Shown here in pieces: positions 24,705 to 31,536 of a DNA stretch of 33,052 nt. The stretch lies in NCBI GenBank assembly GCA_024699045.1, contig JAILQK010000027.1, positions 1-33,052 of the forward strand, given 5' to 3'. The stretch is from Lachnospiraceae bacterium (GTDB lineage: Bacteria; Bacillota; Clostridia; Lachnospirales; Lachnospiraceae). Both the position numbers and the translations under genes were made by a program. Positions within the stretch are counted from its first letter, which is position 1. Each line of letters begins with the position of its first letter. The notes below the pieces were generated by a model that saw only the letters and a program-made list of their open reading frames with translations, made no database searches and was not told where the DNA came from.

Positions 24705-25816
24705 TGCAGGAGGATTTTCATTATTACGCAACATATTGTGCGTCTTATCTCGCAGGGTTTTCGCATGAGGAAAGCCTGGATATCTGTTACAGCGCCCAGT
24801 TTGTGGACATGTGTTCAAGGACGTTCCTGTCCAGGATCAAAGCCCCCGGTCTTGCGGCTACCACTCAGCTTCAGATGGAGATGATGGATACGGTGACGGA
24901 TATTTTGGGCATACAGAATATAACCAGGATATGGGCTTCATTTCATTTCCTTCCTTATGATCTTTATGCGACAAAGCCGGGGACGACTAAACGATTTCTT
25001 AATAAATACCGGCTGATCTGCGCTCCTAACGGAAGCCTTGTGGCAGATACGGTAAAGCTTTCAAAGAACAAAACGCTTCAGCATGCGGGGATCGCCATGC
25101 ATGTGCTCGCCGATACATGGGCGCACAGTTATTTTGCAGGCACTCCGTCTTTAGCGATGAATAATACCGACAGTGACTTCTATGAGGTTATCGGGACCGG
25201 CGATGAAAAATCCGACCGACTGATAAAATTCCGGCATAACCCGTCGGTTCCTGACGATCCGGAAAAAGGACTGTATACCAATACCATTTATCAGAGCGAT
25301 GAGAATTCAATCATGAATCTCGGGCACGGGAGAGCGGGACATCTTCCCGATTATTCTTTCATAAGATACAGATATCTCCCGTCATGGGCTGATTACAGGG
25401 AGATCCTGAAGGATAACCCGCATGATTACCGAATGGCTTTTGACCAGATGGTATATGCTCTGAGATATCTAAGAGGTGAACTTGATGATTTTGTTACGGA
25501 TACATATGATACGGAAAAAACGGGACCGTATCGCGAAAGGATAGGGGCTATAATCGATAAACGGCAGCTCCTTGCTTCAAATGACTGGAAGAGCTTCGGG
25601 GAGGAGCTCTCGGGCAAAGAGATAGTTGATTTTGACCTGTTCAGATATCAGGATGAATATGTATCCGCCGATAAGGATAAGAAAGGTGAAACTTTTCTGG
25701 GGAAATTCATAAACGGCGCATTGGAGCAGAAGGGGATGGTCTCTAAAGCTATATTTGATTCGGGCAATATCCTGGCGGGATTTTTTGCTCCTGTTGTGAT
25801 GAGGGAGGCTAAGTGA
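24704..25816 (+). CDS. Unknown-function protein, probably DUF6765-like
   Basis: 370 aa; MQEDFHYYATYCASYLAGFSHEESLDICYSAQFVDMCS and HAGIAMHVLADTWAHSYFAGTPS recall the DUF6765 family. Overlaps the upstream gene (coupled start). Confidence 0.6.
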   Translation: MQEDFHYYATYCASYLAGFSHEESLDICYSAQFVDMCSRTFLSRIKAPGLAATTQLQMEMMDTVTDILGIQNITRIWASFHFLPYDLYATKPGTTKRFLNKYRLICAPNGSLVADTVKLSKNKTLQHAGIAMHVLADTWAHSYFAGTPSLAMNNTDSDFYEVIGTGDEKSDRLIKFRHNPSVPDDPEKGLYTNTIYQSDENSIMNLGHGRAGHLPDYSFIRYRYLPSWADYREILKDNPHDYRMAFDQMVYALRYLRGELDDFVTDTYDTEKTGPYRERIGAIIDKRQLLASNDWKSFGEELSGKEIVDFDLFRYQDEYVSADKDKKGETFLGKFINGALEQKGMVSKAIFDSGNILAGFFAPVVMREAK

Positions 25817-26346
25817 CACTACTGCAGAGGATAAAAAGCATCATAATAGGGGCGATAATGATAGCTACGGCGATCATGATCAATGTAAACCTTGAGCAGG
25901 GATATATCATTTTGCTTTTCATACTGGCAGCGGGTCTTATCGTAGCGGGTATCGGATCGTTGTATTATTATCTTAGCATGGGCCGGTTCATAGTCGGGGG
26001 TCGCATGTTTCTTTACAGAGGACTGATACTCATAGATATCGGCAGTTTTGCGCTGACGCTTTCCGATGTCCCCCGTATATATGTTTTACTGTATCTTATG
26101 TTCATTCATACTTTCTCCGGAATCGTGGAGATCCTGCGGGCGTTAGAGTCGAGACAATACGGGGCAAGATCCTGGAAATTAAAGATGTCGCATGGCATAG
26201 TAAATCTACTGGTGGTCGTTGCGTGTTTTATCTTCAGAAAATATCCGGAGACACTGGTGATCGTGTACAGTCTGGGGATCGCCTATTCCGGTGTCATGAA
26301 CATCATTTCTGCTTTAAGGAAGAGGAGTTTTATCTATATCCAGTGA
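25813..26346 (+). CDS. HdeD/DUF308-like membrane protein
   Basis: Six hydrophobic segments in paired arrangement; GTGA overlap with upstream stop codon. Confidence 0.55.
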   Translation: MTLLQRIKSIIIGAIMIATAIMINVNLEQGYIILLFILAAGLIVAGIGSLYYYLSMGRFIVGGRMFLYRGLILIDIGSFALTLSDVPRIYVLLYLMFIHTFSGIVEILRALESRQYGARSWKLKMSHGIVNLLVVVACFIFRKYPETLVIVYSLGIAYSGVMNIISALRKRSFIYIQ

Positions 26347-26370: not shown

Positions 26371-26572
26371 GGGCTATGGCTCTCGGGATGAGATATGTTT
26401 TGCTCGGTCAGAGCCAACGCTCATCCAAGCTAAGTACCGCGCATTACTATGTTTCGTGAGAAAATGTCGATAAATCTCCATTTTCTCCTCAACAAGTAAT
26501 TGCGGGTACCGGATCTTGTCTGAGCTAAGGGCGGCTCATATATTCCCTCGCAAAGCATATCTCACCCTCGAG
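26371..26572. repeat. 202-bp element copy 1 (long imperfect inverted repeat; MITE-like or structured RNA)
   Basis: 201/202 identity to 26620-26821. Internal arms pair: GATGAGATATGTTTTGC vs GCAAAGCATATCTCACC; centre GAGAAAATG(26458-26466)-N12-CATTTTCTC(26479-26487). Confidence 0.9.
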
Positions 26573-26619
26573 GCGAAAGCGTCGAAAAGCATGCCACTAG
26601 GAGACGGGCTTTGGTTTCC

Positions 26620-26821
26620 GGGCTATGGCTCTCGGGATGAGATATGTTTTGCTCGGTCAGAGCCAACGCTCATCCAAGCTAAGTACCGCGCATTACTATG
26701 TTTCGTGAGAAAATGTCGATAAATCTCCATTTTCTCCTCAACAAGTAATTACGGGTACCGGATCTTGTCTGAGCTAAGGGCGGCTCATATATTCCCTCGC
26801 AAAGCATATCTCACCCTCGAG
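26620..26821. repeat. 202-bp element copy 2 (long imperfect inverted repeat)
   Basis: Same as copy 1 with a single substitution (g26502 to a26751), offset 249 bp. Confidence 0.9.
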
Positions 26822-27018: not shown

Positions 27019-30000
27019 ATGAAAAATTCAGCAGAGGGGAAGTACAGGAAAAAGGTCGCGGTAGCTGTTATCACAGCTCTTATATTGTCTCTGGCCGGGA
27101 ATATCGTCTGTCTTGCGGCGCCCGGAAGAAGGAAAACGGAACCGGAAACGTCCGGGGAAGTATCGGAGGATACCACGGAGACGGTCAGCGACACGAAGAA
27201 GGAGGCAGCTTCCGAGGAGGTATCTGAGGAGGCATCAGAGGACGTAGCTGTAGAGAAGAGCAGCGACAGGAAGAGGAAAGAGGCAGCTTCTGAGGAGGTA
27301 TCTGAGGACGCATCAGAGGACGTAGCAGAGAAGAGCAGCAACAGGAAGAAGAAGGAGACTGCTTCTGAGGACGTATCTGAGGAGGCATCAGAGGACGTGT
27401 CGGAGAAGAGCAGTGACAGGAAGAGGAAGGAGGCTGCTTCCGAGGAGGTATCTGAGGAGGCATCAGAGGACGTAGCAGAGAAGAGCAGCGACAGGAAGAG
27501 GAAAGAGGCTGCTTCTGAGGATACATCGGAGGAAGCATCAGAGGCAGATACTGATGATAAGGCCGATAAAGAGAAGGCTGAGTGGACCGTTCTTTTTTAC
27601 CTTTGCGGCACCGATCTTGAATCAAACAAGGGAGGTGCAACCGTAAATCTGGAGGAAGTGTCGGAGACCGTTCCCGATGACGAGGTGAATTTTATCATTC
27701 AGACCGGGGGAACCAAAAAATGGAGGTCCAACGATCTGGGAATAGAGATCGACACAACGAAGAATCAGAGGTATATGTATGATGCCGACGGGTTTACTCT
27801 TGTTGATGAAAAGCCGCTCGGCAACATGGCTTCAAAAGAAACGCTCAGCGATTTCATAAGCTGGGGAGCGAAGGAATATCCGGCAGATAAATATATGCTC
27901 GTCATATGGGATCACGGCGGAGGCTCGGAAGGAGGTCTTATAGTTGATGAGATCTTTAACAGGGCGGTACTTTCAGTTGAAGATTTCGGAAAAGCGCTTG
28001 ATACCGCAGATGTTGAATTTGAAACAGTTATGTTTGACTGCTGTGAGATGGCTACACTCGAAATGGGGGCGCAGATCCGGGATAATGCGAAATATATGGT
28101 GGCTTCGGAAGAGATATTGCCTGATTTCGGAACGGATTACAAGGAATGGCTCCAATACCTTTATGATGTGCCCGAATGTAACGGTGAGGAGCTCGGTATC
28201 CAGATATGTGATACCCTTCAGCAGAAGTATGTGAATCTCGGTGATGAGGAATCAACAGCCGTATTGACATTCTCTGTAGTGGATCTTAGCGGGATGGACG
28301 AGATCATCAAAGCTTTTGATGACTTTTTTACAAAAGTCGGAGACCTGCTGGAAGACCCGGAAGCTTTTACCGAATACGCGATCAGAACTTCGTTTGCCGA
28401 GGCATATGTAGGAAAAGAAAGCGGAATGGTTGATCTTGCGGATCTGGCCGATAAGGCGAAGGAACTTGATCAGCTTAAGGATGAGTCCATAGCACTACGC
28501 AGGGCGGTCAGTGATGCTGTCCCGTATTGTATAAAAGGGACCGGAAGAGTTTATTCTCACGGATTATCCTATTTTGACGGGACATCCTTTAGTACCAGAG
28601 AGTTGGATCATTATACACGAAGTGCCTGCAGTGACGTTTATCTGGCTTATCTGGATGCGATCCATCCGGAATGGACGGCTCCTGACAGCGTTTATGAAGA
28701 TATGGATCCTATTGAAGAGATCGATTTTGATAAATATATAGTAGATCCGGAGATCAGCATAGAGGATGACAGGCTTAAGCTCTCCTTCCTGGCAGGGTAT
28801 CAGGCCATAATGAAAGTGGATCATATTCTTTACCGTATGGATGAAGAAACCGGAGAATATGTAATGCTCGGCGAGGGAACAGAAGAGACCGAGGATGAAG
28901 AGAATGAATGCTATTATGCGGGCTTTGACGGAACGTGGCCTGCCATAGGGGACGAATTCTGTTCTATGAAGACAGAGAGTGAAAATTACAGTTATACTAA
29001 TTTTTCGATCCCGGTGAACATCGAGAAAATGGCTGAAGACGCAGTGATCCCGGAAAAATATGATATAGGTTATTATGAAGGCCGAACGATGGAGCTTATC
29101 GGTTCGTATGTGTACTCGAAGGAGGACAGAGAATCGGAAGGAGAAACCAGGGGTAAATATAAATTATATGGGATAAGGGAAAAAGATAATCCGGACGGAG
29201 ATGTCAGTTATTCCGGAAAAGGATTGCTCTCCCTGTCCATGATCTCCGGATCTTCAGTGAGGTTATTGTATCCGGCTATTGAAAAGTATTCTAATAATTA
29301 TATTTATAATCCGGGAGAAACAATAGAAGTAACAAGGGATCTATCCATAGATCCGAAAAAGCTTCCGGCAGGAGAGTACGGGTACAGCTTTGTGGTAACC
29401 GATGTCTTCGGCAACGATCATATAACGGACATGGCTTACCTTAGCTGGACCGGGAAAAAAGCTGTATTCAGTCTTCCGGAGGATGAAAGTGCTCCCGCAG
29501 AGATGGAAGAGGAAGAATACGGCGAGACTGAGGAAGAAACGGAATCCGCCATCACTGAAGATGAGCAGATCGAGGATGACAAGGAGTCCGAGGCTGACAG
29601 AAAGACAAGGGATGACAAGGAGTCCGAGGCTGACAGTAAGTCAAAGAATGACAGAAAGTCAGCAACTCTTTCAAATGATGCGGACTATCAGGAAAAGAAT
29701 ATCCCGGTATTTAATGACGGACCTACCGATGAGGAGGTGGTCGTCCGCTATTATGATGATATGCCGAATGTCGCCTACATCGGGATCAAGGAGTATTACG
29801 ATATTCTGATGGAGGGGAGTCTTGATAAGAAAAAGGTCACCCTTTCCGTTGAAAACAACGGAGACGGCAGCTATGAACTGGAAAATCCTTACGGATCTGC
29901 GGAAGTTGATACCGAAAAAGACACGTTTTCTTCCGAGGATATCATGGGCTTTACGAATCTGATGAGCATGGTCCAGGAGGGAATGAAAAACGGATATTAC

Positions 30001-31536
30001 AACGGGCTTAAATATGCAAGGGTTGAAGAGGTAAAGTCCAAAGGAAAAGGGACTGTTACCTTTGACCTTGGAGAATATGATATCGATATAAGGGAAGGGG
30101 AGGAGGATGTATTTTTCCCTGTAGCGACTCTGGAGGATATCTTTTCGGACGTTAATGATCACAGTACCGAATTTAACGGGGAGAAACTGTATCTGTCGTG
30201 TGACAGTTTCTTTGCCTGGGAGGAGTATGATGACGAGTACGAAGATCCTATCGTTGAGATGATGGAAGAAGGTCAAAGACCCGAAGATCTGGCGGAGTTC
30301 TCATATAACGAAATGTGCTTTGCGATCGATCATTTTTACTGCAATACCGGCAATGCGCTGCTGGACGACCTTATAGAGGAGTACGGCTTTGACACTGCCT
30401 TACAGGAATACGGTGAGATAGGAGAGACGACATCCGAGTATCTCAGATCCACTGATTTCGCGGAATATTATACCGGTTTTGATCTGCTGTGCCCGATGCT
30501 CTATGACGGACAGACCTTTGCATGTATCATAGCCGGCGAAGAGGTGCCGGAGATCGAGGAAAAGAAAGCTGAGCTTGAAGAAGAACTGGAACCATACTTT
30601 GAAGAGCTTTGGGACGAAGCGGATAAGAACAGTGTTTCCCTTGATGAGGGAATGGTTCGCGCAATTCAGCGGGAGGAAGCATTCGATGATGAAGAATACA
30701 TCAAGCAGGGAGATACTGCGGTTTTTGTTCTTGACAGCTTCTACGACTATGCTGCCGATGTCTGGGAGGAATATTATGACGAAGACGGCGATAAGAACTC
30801 ATTGATGAATCACGGATCTGACAATGTCCTGAATCTGATAGAGGCATTGGAAGATGCCTCGGCGGATGACGAGATAGATAATTTCGTGATAGATGTCAGC
30901 TTAAACAGCGGTGGGTCGATCGACAACATGGCGATGGTATACGGTCTTATTTCCGGTAAAAGGGAAGTGACCGTAAAGATGATGAATATGCTTACGGGTC
31001 AGGAGGTAGAGCAGACTTATGAGCTTGACAGGAACCTTGATAAGGTCTTTGATAAGCTTGATGAAAAAGGGGTCTATGATCTTAATTTCGGTGTGATCAC
31101 AAGTGAACAGACCATGTATTCCGCCAACTGCTTTGCGGGTCTTATGAAAGAGGACGGCTGTCCGGTGATGGGACAGAAAAGCGGCGGAGGAGTCTCGCTT
31201 ACACAGGCGCTCTCTACCGGTGAGGGGTACAGCTATTATGTTTCCTCAAAGAAAGGCTGTTTCGTGAATCAAGACGGAACGGTGGCGACAGACGGGATCG
31301 ATGTGGATGTGGACCTGATCCCCAAAGATAAGAACGGGGAGAATAAGACCGTAACCGTAAAGGATAAGTATATCGGGGATCATACCGAGTATACGGGGAC
31401 TGATTATTCTGCGCTGTATGACATAGACCGCATCAGTGAGGAGATGGATGATCAATTCGGCGAGTATAATGCAAACGATGGGAATGATGACAGGAGTGCA
31501 GGTTCAAAGACCGATGAAAGTAAGAACGGCAGGTGA
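27019..31536 (+). CDS. Secreted 1505-aa protein: signal peptide, acidic/basic tandem repeats, clostripain-like (C11) protease domain, linker, S41-like protease domain
   Basis: Signal AVAVITALILSLAGNIVCLAAP; C11: WTVLFYLCGTDLES, LVIWDHGGGSEGG, VMFDCCEMATLE; S41-like: FVIDVSLNSGGSIDNM, TSEQTMYSANCFAGLM, GQKSGGGVS. AGAGGAGAGG SD before the ATG. Confidence 0.82.
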   Translation: MKNSAEGKYRKKVAVAVITALILSLAGNIVCLAAPGRRKTEPETSGEVSEDTTETVSDTKKEAASEEVSEEASEDVAVEKSSDRKRKEAASEEVSEDASEDVAEKSSNRKKKETASEDVSEEASEDVSEKSSDRKRKEAASEEVSEEASEDVAEKSSDRKRKEAASEDTSEEASEADTDDKADKEKAEWTVLFYLCGTDLESNKGGATVNLEEVSETVPDDEVNFIIQTGGTKKWRSNDLGIEIDTTKNQRYMYDADGFTLVDEKPLGNMASKETLSDFISWGAKEYPADKYMLVIWDHGGGSEGGLIVDEIFNRAVLSVEDFGKALDTADVEFETVMFDCCEMATLEMGAQIRDNAKYMVASEEILPDFGTDYKEWLQYLYDVPECNGEELGIQICDTLQQKYVNLGDEESTAVLTFSVVDLSGMDEIIKAFDDFFTKVGDLLEDPEAFTEYAIRTSFAEAYVGKESGMVDLADLADKAKELDQLKDESIALRRAVSDAVPYCIKGTGRVYSHGLSYFDGTSFSTRELDHYTRSACSDVYLAYLDAIHPEWTAPDSVYEDMDPIEEIDFDKYIVDPEISIEDDRLKLSFLAGYQAIMKVDHILYRMDEETGEYVMLGEGTEETEDEENECYYAGFDGTWPAIGDEFCSMKTESENYSYTNFSIPVNIEKMAEDAVIPEKYDIGYYEGRTMELIGSYVYSKEDRESEGETRGKYKLYGIREKDNPDGDVSYSGKGLLSLSMISGSSVRLLYPAIEKYSNNYIYNPGETIEVTRDLSIDPKKLPAGEYGYSFVVTDVFGNDHITDMAYLSWTGKKAVFSLPEDESAPAEMEEEEYGETEEETESAITEDEQIEDDKESEADRKTRDDKESEADSKSKNDRKSATLSNDADYQEKNIPVFNDGPTDEEVVVRYYDDMPNVAYIGIKEYYDILMEGSLDKKKVTLSVENNGDGSYELENPYGSAEVDTEKDTFSSEDIMGFTNLMSMVQEGMKNGYYNGLKYARVEEVKSKGKGTVTFDLGEYDIDIREGEEDVFFPVATLEDIFSDVNDHSTEFNGEKLYLSCDSFFAWEEYDDEYEDPIVEMMEEGQRPEDLAEFSYNEMCFAIDHFYCNTGNALLDDLIEEYGFDTALQEYGEIGETTSEYLRSTDFAEYYTGFDLLCPMLYDGQTFACIIAGEEVPEIEEKKAELEEELEPYFEELWDEADKNSVSLDEGMVRAIQREEAFDDEEYIKQGDTAVFVLDSFYDYAADVWEEYYDEDGDKNSLMNHGSDNVLNLIEALEDASADDEIDNFVIDVSLNSGGSIDNMAMVYGLISGKREVTVKMMNMLTGQEVEQTYELDRNLDKVFDKLDEKGVYDLNFGVITSEQTMYSANCFAGLMKEDGCPVMGQKSGGGVSLTQALSTGEGYSYYVSSKKGCFVNQDGTVATDGIDVDVDLIPKDKNGENKTVTVKDKYIGDHTEYTGTDYSALYDIDRISEEMDDQFGEYNANDGNDDRSAGSKTDESKNGR
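27202..27579 (+). repeat. Five in-frame tandem repeats (75-78 nt) encoding KEAASEEVSEEASEDVAEKSSDRKR-type units
   Basis: Unit starts at 27202, 27280, 27355, 27430 and 27505. Confidence 0.92.
29575..29636 (+). repeat. Exact 26-bp repeat with 36-nt period (DDKESEAD units) in the interdomain linker
   Basis: gatgacaaggagtccgaggctgacag at 29575-29600 and 29611-29636. Confidence 0.9.

Follow-up and report, generated by a model that had tools for sequence, protein, structure and literature searches.

The window, that is, the whole stretch of 33,052 nucleotides that was analysed, carries two copies of a 202-nt unit in the gap between a gene for a DUF308 protein and a gene for a protein with clostripain (C11) and S41 protease domains (Table 1). 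The downstream gene is one ORF of 1505 aa, and its N-terminal region is acidic and rich in repeats. According to both the direct reading of the sequence and the repeat search, the two copies start 249 nt apart. Their sole mismatch, G26502 in copy 1 and A26751 in copy 2, preserves pairing on the minus strand, where a C-G pair becomes U.G. Both copies were assigned to the minus strand because it is the better-folding, G.U-bearing strand. In the spacer between the copies, part of the left flank is repeated (GAGACGGGCTTTGG).

Table 1. Features of the locus, with one pair of related copies from overlapping contigs elsewhere in the same genome.
Feature	Position	Strand	Basis or remark
Upstream gene, DUF308 protein	25813..26346	+	copy 1 begins about 25 nt past its stop codon
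Element copy 1 (202-nt unit)	26371..26572	-	direct sequence reading, repeat search and covariance-model match (model span 26391-26563)
Copy 1 outer arm, left	26386..26403		pairs with 26550-26567; repeat search
Copy 1 middle arm, left, GTACCGCGCATTACT	26434..26448		pairs with 26495-26509; model helix 4
Copy 1 apical hairpin	26458..26487	-	sequence reading, alignments
Copy 1 middle arm, right	26495..26509		partner of 26434-26448; sequence reading, covariation alignment
Copy 1 outer arm, right	26550..26567		partner of 26386-26403; repeat search
Spacer between copies, 47 nt	26573..26619		sequence reading and repeat search
Element copy 2 (one base different)	26620..26821	-	direct sequence reading, repeat search and covariance-model match (model span 26640-26812)
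Copy 2 apical hairpin	26707..26736	-	identical to that of copy 1
Downstream gene, clostripain (C11) and S41 protease domains	27019..31536	+	
L115, L116	G000:C153 11439-11634 and C136 17517-17716		opposite orientations

The outer arms of copy 1 are 89% paired, as are those of copy 2, and they form helix 1 of the covariance model, in which 10 of 10 pairs have undergone double changes. The apical stem, GAGAAAATG-N12-CATTTTCTC, is a perfect 9 bp, and the minus-strand loop motif GAGATTTATCGA, which comprises a tandem G.A, 2 bp and a UUUA loop, is conserved. In this hairpin (helix 6), 98.5% of the alignment cells are paired. The unit folds at -103.8 kcal/mol on the minus strand (z = -9.6) and at -88.7 kcal/mol on the plus strand (z = -6.4), and none of 200 shuffles folded as well on either strand. 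The element is not overlapped by any ORF of at least 80 aa, and the short ORFs within it are unconvincing. The earlier note, made from the letters of the stretch, had described two copies one base apart, pairing outer and middle arms, a perfect central stem around 12 nt, a right flank of copy 2 that lengthens the pairing and no real-looking ORF, and all of these descriptions hold.

The unit is dispersed well beyond this locus. The genome of the window contains seven copies that are 90-100% identical, and a sequence search of this genome and 60 relatives was positive in 10 of the 61, all belonging to the same genus. A covariance model trained on 23 copies matched 13 of 48 genomes of the genus, with up to at least nine copies each; these copy numbers are lower bounds because only part of the search candidates were scored, and the E-values of the model are rough. 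Among 250 genomes of the family, the model found distant relatives in five other genera. Furthermore, when 84,980 species were scanned with a two-part pattern, 23 stretches matched; every one came from a Lachnospiraceae metagenome bin, and those titles that name a source refer to the rumen or abomasum. No copy was present in the viral contigs searched, and phages and plasmids yielded no match to the relative L296. The covariance models of Rfam 15 detected nothing above chance in the window region and only sub-gathering-score matches to unrelated families in the relatives from other genera. The element is outside every Rfam 15 family (riboswitch, HEARO/omegaRNA, group I/II intron, 6S, SRP, etc.). 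Most carriers are fragmented metagenome bins, and their contigs tend to end at the element. Such contig ends could be expected if the element were part of a longer transposon, an explanation that we rejected on inspecting a copy in G020, which adjoins a housekeeping-type gene that we take to resemble polyphosphate kinase. Because of this neighbour, we think that contigs simply break at repeats.

The fold of the element is real. In the model alignment of 37 copies, 92.7% of the cells pair and 41 of 49 pairs have two-sided changes. The covariation score is 0.468, compared with 0.166 after shuffling and at most 0.133 when the structure is slid by one to three columns, although the score gains from an alignment that was itself fitted to the structure. 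In the alignment based on sequence only (A1), the same compensations are visible by eye. The invariant or nearly invariant unpaired motifs are the tip noted above, two tandem G.A sites and an AUCC/UUAG internal loop. Several copies carry chains of small hairpins (e.g., AAAATGAGCCAGTGGCTCATTTTG and CAAAACGTCCACTGGACGTT) inserted on either side of the conserved internal loop as nested palindromes (L099, L100, L104, L105, L106, L112, L134 and L135). Other variants (L103 and L133; L107 and L108) have a different central module or are missing most of the core, and the core-poor variants retain the outer internal loop (GAGGGAA/TGACCGA).

The element also has a strand polarity. One common strand folds better in 49 of 52 copies, and single positions within otherwise common helices of this folding strand hold 64 cases of G.T and 17 of A.C. 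A mutation bias linked to transcription or replication was considered as the source of the G.T excess. However, the ratio of G.T to A.C is 10:3 in copies that are sense with respect to the neighbouring gene and 24:7 in antisense copies, and we rejected such a bias because the ratio fails to reverse with orientation. Therefore, some folded form of the G.T-rich strand, either RNA or ssDNA, is probably selected.

Comparisons between species demonstrate that the element has been inserted at sites that were once empty. An element-bearing block of 221 bp is present in G033, whereas its flanking segments are contiguous in G017; the flanks are 88-89% identical and otherwise collinear, and this site has no clear target-site duplication. 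The parE-parC and gltB-gltD sites are occupied in G021 and the ptb-buk site is occupied in G023, whereas the element is missing at all three in the other species compared. At leuB-ilvD, the copies of G021 and G023 represent different subfamilies in opposite orientations. The names of these four gene pairs are our own reading of translated C-termini, and flanking genes were called by a simple longest-ORF rule. The parE-parC site of G061 holds a different palindrome, L145, which belongs to a second, unrelated-looking family of long hairpins that is also intergenic and has four copies in G061 and pieces in G033, G017, G006, G027 and G025 of the same genus. For the window locus itself, the three relatives inspected had no matching downstream gene after the DUF308 homologue.

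Copies usually begin directly after a stop codon. Genes border 42 copies on both sides; in these, the folding strand is antisense to both genes in 23, sense with both in 11 and mixed in eight. In most antisense copies, the upstream stop codon and the model end are 19-45 nt apart, which puts the start of the arm almost at the stop. No consistent target-site duplication was found across copies; by eye, TA is present on both sides of L103, L102, L138 and L116 and is lacking in many others. In the genus of the window, the ends are asymmetric on the folding strand, with a GTGTAA-like sequence before the 5' arm and a GGACGGGA-like sequence after the 3' arm. The ends have no conserved terminal inverted repeats, and the arms vary by copy and subfamily. 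A search of the window's own genome with the arm pattern returned element loci only and one weak match. RAYT was rejected as a mobiliser since the presence of Y1/RAYT transposase genes does not track the element among carriers: Y1 genes occur in G000, G020, G023 and G061 and were not found in G021, G022, G024, G005, G018, G033, G035 and G068, of which G021 and G022 are well covered. The Y1-bearing contigs of G000 (C29, C157 and C193) had no covariance-model match.

The history of the arms differs among branches. In copies that are at least 95% identical, approximately five single changes at paired sites keep the pair and nine break it. This small count lies close to what we would roughly expect under neutrality and does not demonstrate local selection on the individual resident copies. 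Between L115 and L116 (95% identical), two adjacent pairs have changed together as double compensations. The seven copies in the window's own genome have related arms. In G172, a distant genome of another genus, the arms have been replaced: the cores of L289-L292 are 92-96% identical, whereas their arms are 17-42% identical (ungapped; random expectation of approximately 25%), and the outer arms pair with themselves at 96-100% and with one another at approximately 50%. Slow compensatory evolution cannot readily give this pattern, and joint replacement of both arms can. The opposite case is represented by L291 and L294, which have 75% of the arm in common and only 64% of the core; thus, arms and cores may be exchanged. 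Within 790 kb (22%) of G172, we counted 15 shells, most of which are bounded by CCAA..CAG and CGTCC, in a scan that also matched three sequences resembling chance matches in coding DNA. Among these shells, a bare palindrome that lacks the core and has the same ends, CCAACACACAG-CGAGAGGGATC-CCC-GATCCCTCTCG-CGTCC, lies at G172:C1 3057529. Copying of the arms from another locus was also considered and rejected: 12 arms gave two 16-nt matches in 22% of G172, which is not significant because 6% of random 28-mers also match once. Template switching at hairpins is a published route to making and keeping such stems (PMC8794818) and represents the closest published process for the arm replacement, yet it copies pre-existing sequence.

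Several copies have unusual surroundings. In the overlapping contigs C153 and C136 of G000, the window's own genome, the flanks are 96-100% identical and the element (L115 and L116) is inverted. This is a possible inversion polymorphism that can be read equally well as a strain variant or as an assembly effect. The 45 nt beside these two copies differ strongly, and in C136, they resemble an inverted copy of the other flank. In L117 (G018:C244), the left flank (1-45) repeats, in imperfect inverted form, the final 35 nt or so of the gene on the far side, so the hairpin runs into coding sequence, with wobble pairs. In L113 (G000:C178) and L114 (G000:C179), the 3' arm is in tandem, with units of approximately 29 bp (e.g., GCAAAGGATATTGCATCCCGAGAGTCAGA).

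We consider the unit to be a non-autonomous mobile element, about 180-220 bp in length, that acts as a folded single strand, either RNA or ssDNA, and always with the same polarity, and we assign this reading a probability of roughly 0.6. The element lies between genes, usually straight after a stop codon, and carries a core that is conserved in structure, including the tandem G.A loops, the UUAG/AUCC internal loop and the GAGAUUUAUCGA tip. Its outer arms are either retained or renewed together as complementary pairs. The likeliest route is templated inverted copying, whether by template switching at the hairpin or by fold-back synthesis, and selection for a foldable active strand would act alongside this copying. 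The scheme would require a single-stranded intermediate, a mechanism of arm renewal and a mobilising enzyme supplied in trans. A bolder version, which we regard as doubtful, is that the outer stem is a writable cassette that receives, at or after each insertion, a fresh, arbitrary sequence of approximately 20-30 nt on one side and its reverse complement on the other. The ends (in G172, CCAA..CAG and CGTCC) and the core that border these sequences would stay constant. If this were true, then a programmed or mechanism-inherent maker of unique perfect stems would exist, and the stems could possibly serve as individual identity or guide sequences.

The earlier note had suggested a MITE-like element or a large structured RNA, and each suggestion is partly true of the same object. 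The element is multicopy, dispersed and missing at orthologous sites of sister species, as a MITE-like element should be, whereas a MITE in the strict sense finds no support, in that the element has no conserved terminal inverted repeats and no clear target-site duplication, and no transposase was identified. For the structured RNA, strong covariation and strand-specific wobble pairing are present, and they suit RNA and ssDNA alike. A classical MITE, that is, a deletion derivative of a DDE insertion sequence that moves by way of its terminal inverted repeats and duplicates a TA target, would account for the dispersed non-coding copies, the empty sites in relatives and the four TA-flanked copies. 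Given the many copies without TA, the asymmetric ends and the absence of a clear duplication at the G033/G017 site, we hold this explanation to be very unlikely. The note had allowed that a unit unique to the locus in all related genomes, with neither covariation nor transcription, would represent a mere local duplication, and the short distance between two nearly identical copies might suggest a duplication of no wider meaning. The unit is neither unique nor free of covariation: five more copies are scattered through the same genome and related genomes hold many, so this explanation is refuted and its probability is negligible.

An alternative that deserves more weight, improbable as we judge it, is that the unit is inert palindromic DNA in which paired changes arise solely from replication template switching (quasipalindrome correction), with no selected RNA or ssDNA form. 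This mechanism has been published (PMC8794818), and it is favoured by the multi-base compensatory jumps between L115 and L116 and by the opposite orientations of the element both in contigs C153 and C136 and at leuB-ilvD in two species. However, it predicts neither a G.T excess that is independent of gene orientation nor the survival of internal loops that are not palindromic and of tip bases that hardly vary. A cis-acting RNA with a role in the stability, termination or processing of the upstream gene's mRNA, spread by chance insertions, would suit the positions of the copies directly after stop codons, often between co-oriented genes (parE-parC, ptb-buk and gltB-gltD), and ERIC and bcr elements do act on mRNA (PMC2229807, PMC3446304). 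Nevertheless, in approximately two thirds of the same-direction gene pairs (23 versus 11 copies), the folding strand is antisense to both genes, and the sites are not conserved among species; therefore, we regard this role as quite unlikely. A mobile element that acts through one folded strand is the reading that we retain.

Covariation usually counts as proof that an RNA is conserved. In the present case, a mobile element has real covariation, yet one branch swaps its paired arms wholesale around cores that are 92-96% identical. Whether template switching helps to build RNA stems, which is a matter of debate, thereby becomes directly testable in gut and rumen bacteria. In addition, a structured mobile family that is not in Rfam 15 sits inside essential operons of apparent butyrate producers.

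Several known systems share features with this element. The REP doublets of the REPIN/RAYT system are likewise dispersed hairpins with frequent compensatory changes, and they are sometimes in tandem with their flanks included (PMC3116915); unlike them, the present element has no GTAG-tagged REP pair that we noticed, and its carriers do not follow RAYT. CGTC-tagged palindromic repeats carry CCA tails, and no transposase is known for them (PMC3733652); the G172 relatives are bounded by CGTCC at one end and by CCAA..CAG at the opposite end. However, the CGTC repeats are short, with stems of 8-9 bp, and are not reported from Firmicutes (PMC3733652), and the genus of the window is without CGTC-type ends in the G172 orientation. 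The likeness may be a coincidence. The families bcr1-bcr18 of the Bacillus cereus group are, as here, group-restricted intergenic repeats of a Gram-positive host, and some are MITE-like whereas some have a conserved RNA structure (PMC3446304). In the present case, mobility and a conserved strand-specific structure occur in one family across several genera. ERIC (IRU, RU-1; 127 bp) is also an intergenic, MITE-like imperfect palindrome whose orientation matters for its effect on mRNA, but it has a 7-bp terminal inverted repeat, TA ends and a target duplication (PMC2229807), none of which characterises this element. The Yersinia palindromic element YPAL (RU-2), of approximately 168 bp, is similar in its size, internal imperfect palindrome, intergenic position, empty and filled sites and ends without a fixed TA, and its targets lie at or beside dyad symmetry, according to the YPAL passages drawn on here (PMC2229807). 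Its host belongs to another phylum, and the likeness drawn here is one of description. The same passages report target duplications of 3-26 bp, whereas none is clear at the clean G033/G017 site, and they describe neither wholesale arm replacement nor a strand-specific wobble bias, both of which occur here (PMC2229807). The element behaves as small palindromic mobile elements do, YPAL and ERIC among them (PMC2229807). We consider it to be a previously uncatalogued family of long hairpins, intergenic in rumen Lachnospiraceae, and what distinguishes it from YPAL and ERIC is a strand-specific fold conserved across genera together with the replacement of its arms.
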